Position numbers and translations under genes: made by a program | Origin: Spartobacteria bacterium AMD-G4 | Lineage (GTDB): Bacteria > Verrucomicrobiota > Verrucomicrobiia > Chthoniobacterales > Terrimicrobiaceae | DNA length: 42,578 bases | Assembly: GCA_002290555.1 (NCBI GenBank) | Contig: NEUK01000068.1 | Span: forward strand, 1-42,578 | Direction of reading: 5' to 3' | Part shown: positions 26,974 through 32,254 of the stretch, in pieces | Layout: each line of letters opens with the position of its first letter | How positions within the stretch are numbered: the stretch's first letter is position 1 | The notes under the pieces: model-generated | Seen by the model: the letters and a program-made list of their open reading frames with translations, nothing else | Told to the model about the DNA's origin: nothing | The model's database searches: none

Positions 26974-28635
26974 TCAGGCTAGGGCCCGGTTCAGGGCGCT
27001 GATGATGGCGTGGATGGATGCGAGTTCGATGTTGGTGTCGCTGCCGACGCCGAAGAAGGTGCGGGCGGCGGCAGTTTTGATTTCGATGTAGCTCACGGCG
27101 CGGGCATCGGCTCCGGCGCCGAGCGAGTGTTCGGAATAGCTTTGGATTTCGAAAGGCGGGAGGTTTGTTTGGCTGAGGGCGTGGACGAAGGCAGCGATCG
27201 GGCCATTGCCGGAACCGCAGACTGTGACAGGTTGCCCTTGGAGGATGATGTCGGCTTCGATGGTGACCTGCTCGCTGCGCTCGATGGCCCGGAATTCGCG
27301 CAGGATCACGGCACCTTCACGCAGGACATATGTTTTCAGGAAAAGCCCGTGGATTTCTTCTGCTTCGAGTTCAGTGCCTTTTTCATCCGAGACAGCATTG
27401 ACGATGCGGCCGAGTTCTTTTTGGAGAGACTTGGGAAGCTGGTAGCCGAATTCCGTTTCGAGGACGTAAGCGACGCCGCCTTTGCCGGACTGGGAATTGA
27501 TGCGGATGATTGCTTTGTAGCTGCGGCCGATATCGGCGGGGTCGATCGGAATATAGAGGGTATCCCACGGCTTGCCCTCGGCTTGGCGCGCCCAGGATTT
27601 TTTAATGGCATCCTGATGCGAGCCGCTGAAGGCCGTGAAAGCGAGGTCGCCGGCGTAGGGATGGCGGGGATGAACCTCCATGCGGGTGCAACGCTCGTAA
27701 ACATCGCGGATCGCGTTGAGGCGGCTGAGGTCGAGATGGGGATGAATGCCGTGTGTGTAGAGATTCAGCGCGACCGTGACGATATCGAGGTTGCCGGTGC
27801 GCTCGCCGACTCCGAAGAGTGTGCCCTCCACGCGGTCGGCTCCTGCGAGGAGTCCCAACTCGGTGGCGGCGGTGCCGGTGCCGCGGTCGTTGTGCGTGTG
27901 GAGCGAAAGCGTGGTGAGATGGCGGCGGGTCAGGTGGCGGGACATCCACTCGATCTGGTCGGCGTGGATATTCGGCGTCGCGTATTCGACCGTGGCCGGG
28001 AGGTTGAGGATGATTTTGTTTTCCGGTGTCGGCTGCCAGACATCGGTCACGGCCTCGGAAATCTGGAGGGCGAAATCGAGTTCCGTGCTCGTGAAGCTTT
28101 CCGGCGAGTATTCGAGTCGGATGCGCGAGCCTTCGGCGACGAGCGGCTCCATTTTCTCCTTTAAAAACGAAACCGCATGCGTGGCGATGGAGACGATCTG
28201 CTCTCGGGTCGAGTTGAAGACATATTCGCGCTGCTTCGGCGAGGTCGAATTGTAGAGGTGGAAAATGATGTTCCGCGCTCCGCGCAGCGCCTCCAGCGAG
28301 CGAACGATGAGATCCTCACGGCACTGGCAGAGGATTTGAATCGAGACATCGTACGGGATCAGATTCTCCTCGATGAGACGGCGGCAAAAATCGAATTCGA
28401 TCTGCGAAGCGGATGGAAAGCCGATTTCGATCTCCTTGAAACCTATACCGACGAGCATTTCGAAATACTCGAGTTTTTCCTCCACGCTCATGGGTTGCGC
28501 GAGCGCCTGGTTACCGTCGCGAAGATCTACGCTGCACCAAACGGGAGCGGAGTTCAGAGTGCGGTTCGGCCACTGGCGGTCGGGAAGATCGACTGACGGA
28601 AAGGGCCGGTATTTGGTGACAGGCGGCTGTTGCAT
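26974..28635 (-). CDS. leuA: 2-isopropylmalate synthase (long LeuA type)
   Basis: A 553-residue enzyme condensing acetyl-CoA with 2-oxoisovalerate, the first committed step of leucine synthesis. The catalytic TIM barrel contains SVDLRDGNQAL, HLYNSTSP and LSLHTHNDRGTGTAATELG with the metal-binding HxH, and GNLDIVTVALNLY. The C-terminal regulatory domain (about residues 430-553) carries the allosteric leucine site region GSGNGPIAAFVHAL and SYSEHSLGAGADARAVSYIE. This is the long class found in actinobacteria and many environmental bacteria. The ATG at 28635 is preferred to an in-frame TTG 48 bases upstream. It is the last gene of the operon from deoC, 54 bases after the phosphatase gene. Confidence 0.95.
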   Translation of the reverse strand: MQQPPVTKYRPFPSVDLPDRQWPNRTLNSAPVWCSVDLRDGNQALAQPMSVEEKLEYFEMLVGIGFKEIEIGFPSASQIEFDFCRRLIEENLIPYDVSIQILCQCREDLIVRSLEALRGARNIIFHLYNSTSPKQREYVFNSTREQIVSIATHAVSFLKEKMEPLVAEGSRIRLEYSPESFTSTELDFALQISEAVTDVWQPTPENKIILNLPATVEYATPNIHADQIEWMSRHLTRRHLTTLSLHTHNDRGTGTAATELGLLAGADRVEGTLFGVGERTGNLDIVTVALNLYTHGIHPHLDLSRLNAIRDVYERCTRMEVHPRHPYAGDLAFTAFSGSHQDAIKKSWARQAEGKPWDTLYIPIDPADIGRSYKAIIRINSQSGKGGVAYVLETEFGYQLPKSLQKELGRIVNAVSDEKGTELEAEEIHGLFLKTYVLREGAVILREFRAIERSEQVTIEADIILQGQPVTVCGSGNGPIAAFVHALSQTNLPPFEIQSYSEHSLGAGADARAVSYIEIKTAAARTFFGVGSDTNIELASIHAIISALNRALA

Positions 28636-28689
28636 GGAGTGCGGCAGAGTAGCACCGCCAAAGCCGGTGCGCCAAGTTTTCAAAAGAAA

Positions 28690-29511
28690 CTACCCGGCAA
28701 TATCCACCACCATCGCAGTCGCATTGTCGCGACCGGAGGCTGCGATTGCCTCGCGAACGAGTGCCGGTGCGGCCTCGCGGGGGGTATTGCGCAGGATTTC
28801 TTCGATGCGACTATCGAAGAGTCCATCGGTCACACCATCCGTGCAGAGCAGGAAGCGGTCGCCTGGCTCGAGTCCCACGGCTCCGGCTTGGGGTTCGATC
28901 TGTTGCGGGTCCGCGCCGAGGACTTTTTGCAGGATATTTCGCCGGGGATGGTTTTTCGCCTCGCGCTCGTTGATTTGGCCATTTCGAAAAAGCCAGCCGA
29001 CATAGGTGTCATCGTCGGTGATCTGTTTCATGCCGCCTGCCGCCGGCAGGAAGTAAATGCGACTATCGCCAACATGGGCGAAATACATCCAGCCAGGTGT
29101 GAACCAACAAAGGCTCAGCGTGGCACCCATGCCCCGGCATTCGTCATAACAGGAACCGAGATAGAGAAGCGCTCCATGGATTTCGACAAAGACCTCCTGA
29201 AGCACATCGCGGAATCCGCTGGAAATGCCCGAAGCTCCTTGTGCGAAGACAGGAGGCAGGAGTTTCGTGATTTTTTCCACGGCGATCTTGCTCGCAAACT
29301 CGCCAGCCATTGCCCCGCCCATTCCATCGCTCACCGCGAACACAAAATCGGATTTAGCGACTTCCGCATCGCCGGTTTTTCCCAGCAACTGGACGCCCTG
29401 CGAATCAACGAGGAGCCCGAGGAACGAGTCCTCGTTATTTTTGCGAACTTTCCCGCAGTCGGTATGCCCCGACCATACGAGGCCTTTCATCGAGGGGACG
29501 CTTTCTCTCAT
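28690..29511 (-). CDS. PP2C-family serine/threonine phosphatase
   Basis: A 273-residue PPM/PP2C phosphatase, metal dependent and cytosolic. Conserved motifs in order: SGHTDCGKVRKNNEDSF, FAVSDGMGGAMAGEFAS, AHVGDSRIYFL, FLLCTDGVTDGLFDS, and GRDNATAMVV, supplying the metal-binding Asp residues. No transmembrane or sensor domain is attached. The start at 29511 makes an ATGA overlap with the kinase-like gene upstream, with GGAG in front; MKGLVW at 29490 is an alternative. A phosphatase translated with a kinase-like protein suggests an on/off signalling pair. Confidence 0.92.
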   Translation of the reverse strand: MRESVPSMKGLVWSGHTDCGKVRKNNEDSFLGLLVDSQGVQLLGKTGDAEVAKSDFVFAVSDGMGGAMAGEFASKIAVEKITKLLPPVFAQGASGISSGFRDVLQEVFVEIHGALLYLGSCYDECRGMGATLSLCWFTPGWMYFAHVGDSRIYFLPAAGGMKQITDDDTYVGWLFRNGQINEREAKNHPRRNILQKVLGADPQQIEPQAGAVGLEPGDRFLLCTDGVTDGLFDSRIEEILRNTPREAAPALVREAIAASGRDNATAMVVDIAG

Positions 29512-29891
29512 TCTCCAGGCTCCAGAATCGTCGCAAATTCAAAATCAATCAGGCAAAATCGTCCATCGACCTGACGGTAGGTGACATTCCGTATGTCGGC
29601 ATCGTCGTGACGCACGCCGTAGGGCTCGAGTTCGGCGAAGAGCTCGCGGCAGCGCGCCTCATCCAAATGGTCCACGCGTGTGCCGCAATTCGTCGTTACG
29701 ATTTTCAGCTCCTCGGCATCGCTCTCCACGAGCCTGGGAACGAATGGGCAGGCCTTCTTTTCGAGGTAGCGCAATACCTTCACCTCGTTTGCGAAGCGCT
29801 CCTCCGCTTTGGGGCCGCGAAATTGTTTATAGACCTTGCCGTCGTAGCCTATGCGCACGGTGGCGCGAAGAGTGTCTTTGACCTGTTGCAT
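29508..29891 (-). CDS. Minimal protein kinase-like protein
   Basis: Only 127 residues, about half of a kinase domain, yet key kinase positions appear in the right order: Lys22 in KVYKQF (ATP-binding lysine), Glu36 in FANEVKVL (helix-C glutamate), His95-Asp96-Asp97 and Asn102 in RHDDADIRN (the HRDxxxxN catalytic loop) and Asp116-Phe117-Glu118 (DFG-like). A glycine-rich loop is not obvious and the activation/substrate lobe is missing. It resembles tiny RIO/Kdo/aminoglycoside-kinase-like proteins. It overlaps the short aldehyde dehydrogenase gene by one base and the PP2C gene by four. Activity is plausible but unproven. Confidence 0.65.
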   Translation of the reverse strand: MQQVKDTLRATVRIGYDGKVYKQFRGPKAEERFANEVKVLRYLEKKACPFVPRLVESDAEELKIVTTNCGTRVDHLDEARCRELFAELEPYGVRHDDADIRNVTYRQVDGRFCLIDFEFATILEPGE

Positions 29892-30757
29892 CAGTTGCCG
29901 ATGGGGTGCCAGACGGTTTTGGATTCCACAAAGGAACGAATTTTATCGAGTCCTTGGGCGCTTTCAGAATGCCAGTCGATAGTTTTTTCCTCATCGAGAA
30001 AAACCGTCCGTTTCACACTTTCGGCGCAGCCTTTTTGAATTTCCGTCCGACCGGCCTTGCCAACGCACGCATAGACCGCACGGATGTGTTCGTGCGTGGC
30101 CATCGTGGGCAGAATGTCCGCACGCGCACCGGTGAGAATATTGACCACTCCTGCGGGAAGGTCGCTCACGGCAAGCATTTCTCCGAGCAGAATCGATGAA
30201 TACGGGCGCGCGTGAGAGGTAAGTGCGACGACCGCGTTGCCGCTTGTGATGGCAGGCAGGATCATCGAGAGGAGTCCGAGCAGCGAGGATTCTTCGGGAG
30301 CAATGATGCCAACAATTCCCATGGGCTCGGTGACTGTGAAATTGAAATGCGAACTCGCAACGGGATTCACGCTGCCGAGCAGGGGTCCGTATTTATCCGT
30401 CCATCCCGCATAGTGAACGATGCGGTCGATGGCTGTTTGAACCTCGCTCTCCGCGGCCGGGCGGTCGGGTTGCGTGGTCATGATGGCACGGACCAATTCC
30501 TCCGCGCGCGGCTCGATCATTTCGGCGAGCCTGTAGAGGATTTGCCCCCGATTATAGGCGCTGCGGGCGGACCAGGAGGAAAAAGCCTTCGCTGCGGCCT
30601 CGACCGCGTTGCGGAGATCCTTGCGCGTGCAGAGCGGGATGTTTGCAAAGAATTCACCGGATGAATCCTGAAGCGGATACACGCGCCCGCTCTCGGAACG
30701 GATGAATGCTCCGCCGACGAGGCATTTGGGAGTTTTTGTGATGGGAAGACGATTCAT
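29891..30757 (-). CDS. Short aldehyde dehydrogenase-like protein lacking the catalytic half
   Basis: A 288-residue relative of the aldehyde dehydrogenase N-terminal (NAD-binding) region. FSSWSARSAYNRGQILYRLA and TVTEPMGIVGIIAPEES align with a normal enzyme, but the usual PWNFP is changed to APEES. The protein ends before the catalytic Cys, and the usual LELGGK glutamate region is replaced (KRTVFLDEEKTIDW). The frame is intact and the ending tidy, so it looks like a maintained non-catalytic partner rather than a pseudogene. It follows the full-length enzyme by 18 bases. It may form a mixed oligomer or a regulatory subunit. Confidence 0.75.
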   Translation of the reverse strand: MNRLPITKTPKCLVGGAFIRSESGRVYPLQDSSGEFFANIPLCTRKDLRNAVEAAAKAFSSWSARSAYNRGQILYRLAEMIEPRAEELVRAIMTTQPDRPAAESEVQTAIDRIVHYAGWTDKYGPLLGSVNPVASSHFNFTVTEPMGIVGIIAPEESSLLGLLSMILPAITSGNAVVALTSHARPYSSILLGEMLAVSDLPAGVVNILTGARADILPTMATHEHIRAVYACVGKAGRTEIQKGCAESVKRTVFLDEEKTIDWHSESAQGLDKIRSFVESKTVWHPIGN

Positions 30758-30775: not shown

Positions 30776-32254
30776 TCAGGCGAGTTTTGCGTAGTCCAGC
30801 AGGCCCTGTTTTCCCCCCTCGCGCCCGAAGCCGGACTCCTTGAACCCACCGAAGGGCGAGGCGGGGTCGAATTTGTTGTAGGTGTTGGCCCAAACGACGC
30901 CGGCCTTGAGTTCGGCCGACATCTTTAAAATCCGAGACCCCTTGTCGGTCCATACGCCCGCGCTGAGGCCATAGGGAGTATTGTTCGCTTTCTCGATCGC
31001 CTCCTCAGGCGTGCGAAAAGTGAGAATCGAAAGGACCGGCCCGAAGATTTCCTCCTGCGCGATGCGGTGGCTCGAGGAAACACCGGAAAAAAGGGTGGGC
31101 GCAAAGTAGAATCCTTTTTTCGGAAGGCGGCATTCCGTTTGAAAAATCTCAGCCCCTTGGCGGATACCACCCTGAACGAGGTCGCGGATTTTCTGGAGTT
31201 GGGCGAGCGAGTTGATGGCACCGATATCGGTGTTTTTGTCGAGGGGATCGCCAACGCGAAGGTGGCGCATGCGGAGCTTGAGCTTGTGCAGTATCTCGGA
31301 GGCGATGGATTCCTGGACAAGCAGGCGGGCCCCAGCACAGCAGACATGGCCTTGATTGAAGAAAATGCCATTCACGATGCCCTCGACGGCCTGGTCAATC
31401 GGAGCATCCTCAAAAACAATATTCGCTGCCTTGCCGCCGAGTTCCAGCGTGAGGCGTTTGTCTGAGCCGGCGAGTTCGCGCTGGATCCATTTGCCGACGG
31501 CCGTTGATCCAGTGAATGCAATCTTGGCCGCTGCGGGATGGCCCACGATGGCCGCGCCGGTCTCACGCGCACCTGTGACGATATTCACCACCCCCGGTGG
31601 CAGAGCGGCGTCCTGCAGGATGGATGCGAATTTCATGGCCGTCACGGAAGTCGTTTCCGCAGGCTTGATGACGACGGTATTTCCCGTGGCGAGCGCCGGG
31701 GCGATTTTCCACGCCATCATCAGGAGGGGAAAGTTCCAAGGAATGATCTGGCCCGCCACGCCGAGTGGTTCCAGGCGGCGGCCCGGCATGGCGCAGTCGA
31801 GCTTGTCCGCCCAGCCGGCATGGTAGAAGAAATGCGCGGCGGACATCGGCAAATCGAAGTCCCGCGACTCGCGGATCGGCTTGCCTCCATCGATCGTCTC
31901 CGCCACAGCAAACTCGCGCGCCCGGTCCTGAAGAAGGCGGGCTATGCGGTAGAGATATTTTCCCCGCTCCGCACCGGGAGTCTTGCTCCACTTGGGAAAT
32001 GCCGCCGTTGCGGCCTCGAAGGCGGCATTCACATCGGAGTCGCCGGCATGAGCGATCTCCGAAACTTTCGCCTCGTTTCGCGGGCTGATGCTGTCGAAAT
32101 ACTTTTTCGACTTTGGCGCGGTAAATTTCCCGTTGATGAAAAGCTGGTAGCGGGGCGCGATATTCGGGTCCGCTGTTTCCGGGGCCGGGTCGAATTCCCA
32201 GAGGTCGCCGAAGAGGAGCTCTCGGGCGGGATTGTTCGGTCGTTTGGCAGGCAT
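30776..32254 (-). CDS. Aldehyde dehydrogenase (NAD-dependent)
   Basis: A 492-residue full aldehyde dehydrogenase. NAD-binding PWNFPLLMMAWKIAPALATG, the FTGSTAVGK glycine motif, the general-base Glu in LELGGKAAN, the nucleophile Cys305 in FFNQGHVCCAG and the C-terminal SPFGGFKESGFGREGG are all present. It would oxidise an aldehyde to the acid with NAD. Immediately after deoC (3-base gap), it probably takes acetaldehyde or glyceraldehyde 3-phosphate derived from deoxyribose 5-phosphate cleavage. The substrate is inferred from context only. Confidence 0.9.
   Translation of the reverse strand: MPAKRPNNPARELLFGDLWEFDPAPETADPNIAPRYQLFINGKFTAPKSKKYFDSISPRNEAKVSEIAHAGDSDVNAAFEAATAAFPKWSKTPGAERGKYLYRIARLLQDRAREFAVAETIDGGKPIRESRDFDLPMSAAHFFYHAGWADKLDCAMPGRRLEPLGVAGQIIPWNFPLLMMAWKIAPALATGNTVVIKPAETTSVTAMKFASILQDAALPPGVVNIVTGARETGAAIVGHPAAAKIAFTGSTAVGKWIQRELAGSDKRLTLELGGKAANIVFEDAPIDQAVEGIVNGIFFNQGHVCCAGARLLVQESIASEILHKLKLRMRHLRVGDPLDKNTDIGAINSLAQLQKIRDLVQGGIRQGAEIFQTECRLPKKGFYFAPTLFSGVSSSHRIAQEEIFGPVLSILTFRTPEEAIEKANNTPYGLSAGVWTDKGSRILKMSAELKAGVVWANTYNKFDPASPFGGFKESGFGREGGKQGLLDYAKLA

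Follow-up and report, generated by a model that had tools for sequence, protein, structure and literature searches.

Several described families share features with the protein analyzed here, a 127-residue kinase-like protein that we refer to as K. The tRNA U47 2'-kinase ArkI (COG2112, AQ578 family, structure 8yv5) has a small kinase fold with a reduced C-lobe and carries DFE in place of DFG; it retains a P-loop region as well as a helix at its C-terminus that bears an RNA-binding YKR motif, and its eraser is KptA (PMC9095486), whereas K, which on this feature is not an ArkI member, has only a short variable tail without the YKR helix and is partnered with a PP2C-type phosphatase and type II glutamine synthetase (GSII). 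The APH/choline kinase/Kdo kinase superfamily (PF01636, PF01633, PF06293) has the HxDxxxxN and DFE motifs in common with K, but K reaches only about half of the APH model's length, matches it best over residues 82–122 only, and lacks the substrate-binding C-lobe, the protein ending at residue 127 after DFE. The Bud32/PRPK and Rio atypical kinases resemble K in their compact fold and show high structural similarity to it; nevertheless, K scores far under the Bud32 model cut-off (TIGR03724, 17.6 bits versus 125), and no KEOPS context was seen. The glycine-rich loop of Hanks-type Ser/Thr kinases is replaced in K by a short hairpin, and the activation segment, the APE motif and helices F to I are missing; having no glycine loop, no activation segment and no helices F to I, K is therefore not a Hanks kinase. 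The phage 'kinase' family phrog_3297 (160 positions), the substrate of which is unknown, aligns to most of K (residues 9–121 to positions 4–113, E 5e-7); we know of no PP2C or GSII association for this family.

The partner of K has the metal-binding residues of PphA- and Stp1-type PP2Cs, and among solved sequences it is nearest to the 5d2u/2j82 group, which is the Thermosynechococcus PphA homologue. It differs from Stp1 in falling below the Stp1/IreP NCBIfam equivalog cut-off (187 versus 230 bits) and in always accompanying K, to which it is sometimes fused. Among systems that control a glutamine synthetase (GS), the adenylyltransferase/adenylyl-removing enzyme GlnE is the one to which the proposed role of the pair may be compared, as it exerts reversible covalent control and is tied to one GS type across genomes, but it is an unrelated protein with a different chemistry, acts on type I glutamine synthetase (GSI), and has a distribution opposite to that of K. 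According to published reports, the GSII of Streptomyces is not adenylylated (PMC10704036) and that of Sinorhizobium is controlled mainly via transcription (PMC5127829). In plants, GSII enzymes are regulated through phosphorylation by kinases that a 2015 review could not yet name (PMC4515544). In the open-licence full texts searched, we found no prior description of a GSII-linked K-PP2C module. Our leading reading, to which we give somewhat less than an even chance, is that K and PP2C constitute a reversible phosphorylation switch dedicated to GSII or to its regulation; the phosphotransfer, its substrate and the direction of the control of GSII are what we infer here.

The window, i.e., the whole stretch of 42,578 nucleotides analyzed (Spartobacteria bacterium AMD-G4, contig NEUK01000068.1), carries K and PP2C on its minus strand in the order deoC-domain long ORF, full-length aldehyde dehydrogenase, half-length homologue of the latter, K, PP2C and leuA-type gene (Table 1). 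An initial annotation, made from the letters of the sequence, had recognized Lys22, Glu36, HDDADIRN (95-102) and DFE (116-118) in kinase order, as well as the 4-bp overlap of the two genes, and all of these are found in the 127-aa frame and at its end, at the residues given. The half-length aldehyde dehydrogenase homologue (29891-30757, minus strand, 288 aa, Pfam Aldedh positions 4–233 of 461) adjoins the full-length gene (30776-32254) and the deoC-domain ORF, and its stop codon has one base in common with the start codon of K.

Table 1. Features of the K-PP2C locus in the window
Feature	Position	Strand	Basis or remark
K (127-aa minimal kinase-like protein)	29508..29891	-	ATG start; motifs, residue conservation, model, dN/dS
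PP2C-type protein phosphatase, 273 aa	28690..29511	-	metal-binding residues kept: NED, DGMGG, GDSR, DG, DN
K stop/PP2C start overlap, 4 bp (ATGA)	29508..29511	-	ORF coordinates
Lys22 codon (strand 3, ATP-binding lysine position)	29826..29828	-	invariant in 71 homologues
Glu36 codon (helix C, salt-bridge glutamate position)	29784..29786	-	invariant in 71 homologues
HDDADIRN catalytic loop, residues 95-102	29586..29609	-	His95, Asp97, Asn102 invariant
DFE metal-binding motif, residues 116-118	29538..29546	-	Asp116, Phe117, Glu118 invariant
leuA-type gene, downstream of PP2C	26974..28683	-	outside conserved module

To characterize the fold of K, an AlphaFold2 model was built with 71 homologues (pLDDT 93.2, pTM 0.86). 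The model consists of a five-strand N-lobe with helix C, a single C-lobe helix (78–86), the catalytic loop and the metal loop, after which the chain ends (strands 2–6, 10–14, 20–24, 54–58, 63–66, 93–95, 103–106 and 111–114; helices 29–45 and 78–86; end at 127). This is a protein-kinase-like fold, with the N-lobe sheet, helix C and both loops in kinase order, and it holds the Lys/Glu pair (K22, E36), the catalytic Asp (D97) and the metal-binding Asn and Asp (N102, D116). The possibility that the modelled fold would prove unlike a kinase, which the initial annotation had named as grounds for giving up its reading, can thus be set aside, and the model bears out its remark that the glycine loop and most of the C-lobe are absent, showing neither a glycine loop nor any C-lobe past DFE.

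The best solved match in Foldseek was ArkI 8yv5 (E 4e-7, TM 0.69 by query), followed by PRPK/Bud32 and Rio2, and VIA-align gave Z scores of 12–13 for K against a range of kinases. Since many kinases tie in structural score, these matches show the fold of K and not its function. Pfam APH (PF01636) scored 25.1 bits on K, just above its gathering cut-off of 23.2, and matched all 71 family members at E up to 1, while the Kdo kinase profile remained just under its cut-off and a PDB sequence search with the K profile returned nothing credible. The most fitting place for K is within the broad APH/atypical kinase superfamily, as a minimal form not described before. A phage origin was rejected, as tblastn of K against phages gave no match and the single IMG/VR contig found with K is probably chromosomal. 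That contig (UViG_3300017658_000249), filed as viral, encodes a K-PP2C fusion and, in the same orientation, GSII, and is more likely a chromosomal fragment or the mis-filed flank of a provirus.

K homologues were found at 229 places in a genome collection and, at 58–97% identity, in 39 of 58 related genomes. Among cultured bacteria, Chthoniobacter flavus Ellin428 (L081) carries the module. Between close homologues dN was ~ 0.03–0.15, with dS of ~ 0.9–2 or saturated, and K is under strong purifying selection. Across 71 aligned homologues K22, E36, H95, D97, N102, D116, F117 and E118 are invariant, and so are K5, T7 and R9, located around the turn that replaces the glycine-rich loop. The conserved part stops near residue 124, ~ 6 residues past DFE, and is followed by a variable tail. 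The suspicion that K might be a truncated fragment of a longer kinase did not hold, because its homologues are of the same size and end alike, and the longer open frames are fusions of K with PP2C. Based on the invariant residues, the purifying selection and this shared end point, K is not a degraded or truncated kinase, and from its residues we predict that it is probably catalytically active.

The phosphatase of the window was identified by the PP2C_2 profile (E 1.8e-16), and its D28, D62, G63, D149, D225, D262 and N263, the metal-binding residues of the family, are near-invariant. The initial annotation had remarked that a kinase this small would be unusual as the partner of a phosphatase and had suggested a survey of their co-occurrence. 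PP2C lies directly downstream of K in 103 of 120 non-redundant loci and is fused to it in frame, through a linker of ~ 10–30 residues, in a further 14. Likewise, an orthologous PP2C (267 bits or more) is present in exactly the same 39 of the 58 related genomes as K, PP2C matches in the genomes lacking K reaching 82 bits at most. Conserved adjacency and fusion are what is expected of a cognate kinase-phosphatase pair. Of the remaining three loci, one is cut by a contig end (L086), one encodes a different protein (L140), and one is a true exception, L142 (genome G230), in which K has no PP2C within ~ 4 kb; this last locus counts against the switch. The protein of L140 (G258 C239, 4632-5999, plus strand) is a 456-aa open frame whose N-terminal part resembles a methyltransferase and whose C-terminal part is a mini-kinase of ~ 120 residues with HRDMNRKN and DFE, a second very-short-kinase design from another class of the phylum. 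At L071 (637-1464, plus strand) a PP2C homologue downstream of an intact K is split across two overlapping frames, the result of either a frameshift or a fault in the assembly.

A model of a natural K-PP2C fusion (L109) yielded two confident domains joined by a disordered linker (pTM 0.69), and a fixed interface between K and PP2C is not supported by it. This bears on the reading that K is a pseudokinase which binds a nucleotide or GSII and serves PP2C as an adaptor or allosteric regulator without transferring phosphate. The missing glycine loop and the end of the C-lobe at DFE would fit a pseudokinase, and the constant pairing and fusion would fit a regulatory subunit; however, the flexible linker with no confident interface speaks against it, and K22, E36, D97, N102 and D116 are invariant over deep divergence, whereas pseudokinases often lose such residues. 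We consider this reading unlikely. For the switch, the argument is that a kinase core with intact residues that is inherited together with a Ser/Thr phosphatase should write the phosphate that the phosphatase erases; the want of a fixed interface in the fusion model counts against the switch too.

When the neighbours at K loci were clustered, the GSII family (~ 345 aa) came far ahead, with no other neighbour nearly as conserved. At 77 loci the sequence reaches 2.5 kb or more upstream of K; GSII is divergently oriented 118–420 bp upstream of K in 48 of these and lies anywhere in the locus in 53. In two divergent families (L141 and L143), GSII is instead downstream of the pair on the same strand. 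The genetic link between K-PP2C and GSII is strong. The GSII of the window genome is on another contig, unlinked to the pair; this lineage has lost the linkage and its pair lies beside leuA and deoC, which explains why the initial annotation saw no obvious target. Its description of the leuA/deoC context stands, but that context is special to the lineage of the window, the leuA-type gene adjoining the pair in close relatives only, and the class-wide neighbour GSII provides a candidate target. Sites of the sigma54 type (TGGCAY-N5-TTGC) were found in 12 of 37 intergenic regions, all oriented to GSII, which fits a gene under nitrogen regulation; a sigma54 promoter for K-PP2C was rejected on the same orientation.

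In ~ nine loci the pair is flanked on its far side from GSII by genes for an ammonium transporter and PII. This neighbourhood speaks for the nitrogen link of the preferred reading, and also for the reading in which K phosphorylates Ser49 of the PII T-loop and PP2C erases the phosphate, as in some cyanobacteria. The solved sequences nearest to PP2C, 5d2u and 2j82, the Thermosynechococcus PphA homologue, also favour the PII reading, and the T-loop motif RGSEY is present in every verrucomicrobial PII copy read. In cyanobacteria, Ser49 of PII carries a phosphate that is removed by the PP2C PphA (PMC4285133). Against this, PII and its Ser49 occur with and without K, and nearly all of these genomes have the PII uridylyltransferase GlnD. 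PII present regardless of K leaves the distribution of K unexplained, whereas GSII explains it, and PII is thus the less favoured substrate and this reading quite unlikely. Ser49 was also discarded as a discriminator of K, the serine being found in K-containing and K-lacking genomes alike. All verrucomicrobial PII T-loops read, as on C56 and C17 of genome G000, have RGSEYTVDF, with the cyanobacterial phosphoserine kept although GlnD is also present.

The preferred reading, in which GSII or its regulation is the target, was compared with the distribution of genes across genomes. Of 240 genomes sampled across the phylum, 41 carry K, and precisely these 41 carry a GSII orthologue (490 bits or more); six others, from different classes, encode a GSII that is less closely related (55–60% identity) and have no K, which counts against the switch. 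Among 157 genomes of the order, K is present in 68 and GSII in 68, with concordance in 155, the discordant ones being G001 (86% complete), with K and no GSII, and G015 (99% complete), with GSII and no K, which also counts against the switch. Both genes change between presence and absence in step within families f4, f5, f6, f7, f15, f17 and f21 and within genera g10, g22 and g154. GlnE showed the opposite pattern, occurring in 3 of 68 K-containing versus 54 of 89 K-lacking order genomes, while PII and GlnD were near universal and did not discriminate the two sets. A role of K as a replacement of GlnD was rejected for that reason. The repeated concordant changes of K and GSII are a stronger argument than the Fisher tests on co-occurrence, which treat genomes as independent, though they are not.

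It could be argued that the tie to GSII is genomic linkage only, a cassette gained and lost together, and that the target of K-PP2C is unrelated to nitrogen. The pair and GSII are neighbours in most families, so one event could gain or lose them all, and transfer of a linked cassette could explain part of the co-occurrence. Nevertheless, 21 of 66 order genomes keep both K and GSII on different contigs, a figure inflated by draft assemblies, and the genes stay linked in two distinct arrangements, with no other neighbour nearly as conserved. Linkage alone is in our view an improbable explanation, and a functional tie of K to GSII or nitrogen assimilation very probably exists. That K is an ArkI-type kinase of tRNA or another RNA with PP2C as eraser is very improbable, despite the ArkI match and the DFE that ArkI also has (PMC9095486), as many other kinases tie with that match, KptA is absent from 56 of 58 relatives, which argues against an ArkI/KptA-type cycle, K ends ahead of the helix with the YKR motif, and the Ser/Thr phosphatase partner and the GSII linkage point to protein control.

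In the switch that we favour, K would be a stripped-down ATP-dependent kinase relying on Lys22 and Glu36 of the N-lobe, the catalytic Asp97 and the metal ligands Asn102 and Asp116. It would most likely phosphorylate either GSII or some protein on which GSII activity depends, and PP2C would take the phosphate off again, so that the pair would play the part for GSII that adenylylation by GlnE plays for GSI. The linkage and co-occurrence point to GSII or a GSII controller as the target, and GSII itself is a tentative candidate for the substrate. The absence from K of the C-lobe parts that hold substrates in known kinases counts against the switch. GSII sequences from genomes with and without K were compared for a phosphosite (loci L193-L200). 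At position 308 of GSII (numbered on L200, the GSII of the window genome), 79 of 80 sequences from K-containing genomes have Tyr, the exception, L124, having Trp, and all seven from K-lacking genomes have Trp, six of these seven belonging to one distant group; the Trp set includes G015, a congener that lost K. This position is a weak lead to a candidate contact or modification site.

Post-synthesis control of bacterial GSII is poorly known, and K-PP2C provides a concrete two-gene system, a pair that tracks GSII across a bacterial class and is sometimes fused. Its distribution suggests that it may be an on/off switch for nitrogen assimilation. It is possible, though doubtful enough to be put forward with reserve, that K ranks with the smallest protein kinases that are active, having ~ 124 conserved residues and neither a glycine loop nor any C-lobe past DFE, and that together with PP2C it exerts a dedicated covalent control of GSII in Verrucomicrobiia, occupying a place like that of GlnE, possibly with GSII as the missing substrate platform. 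If K is active, it would show how small a part of the kinase fold is enough to transfer phosphate.
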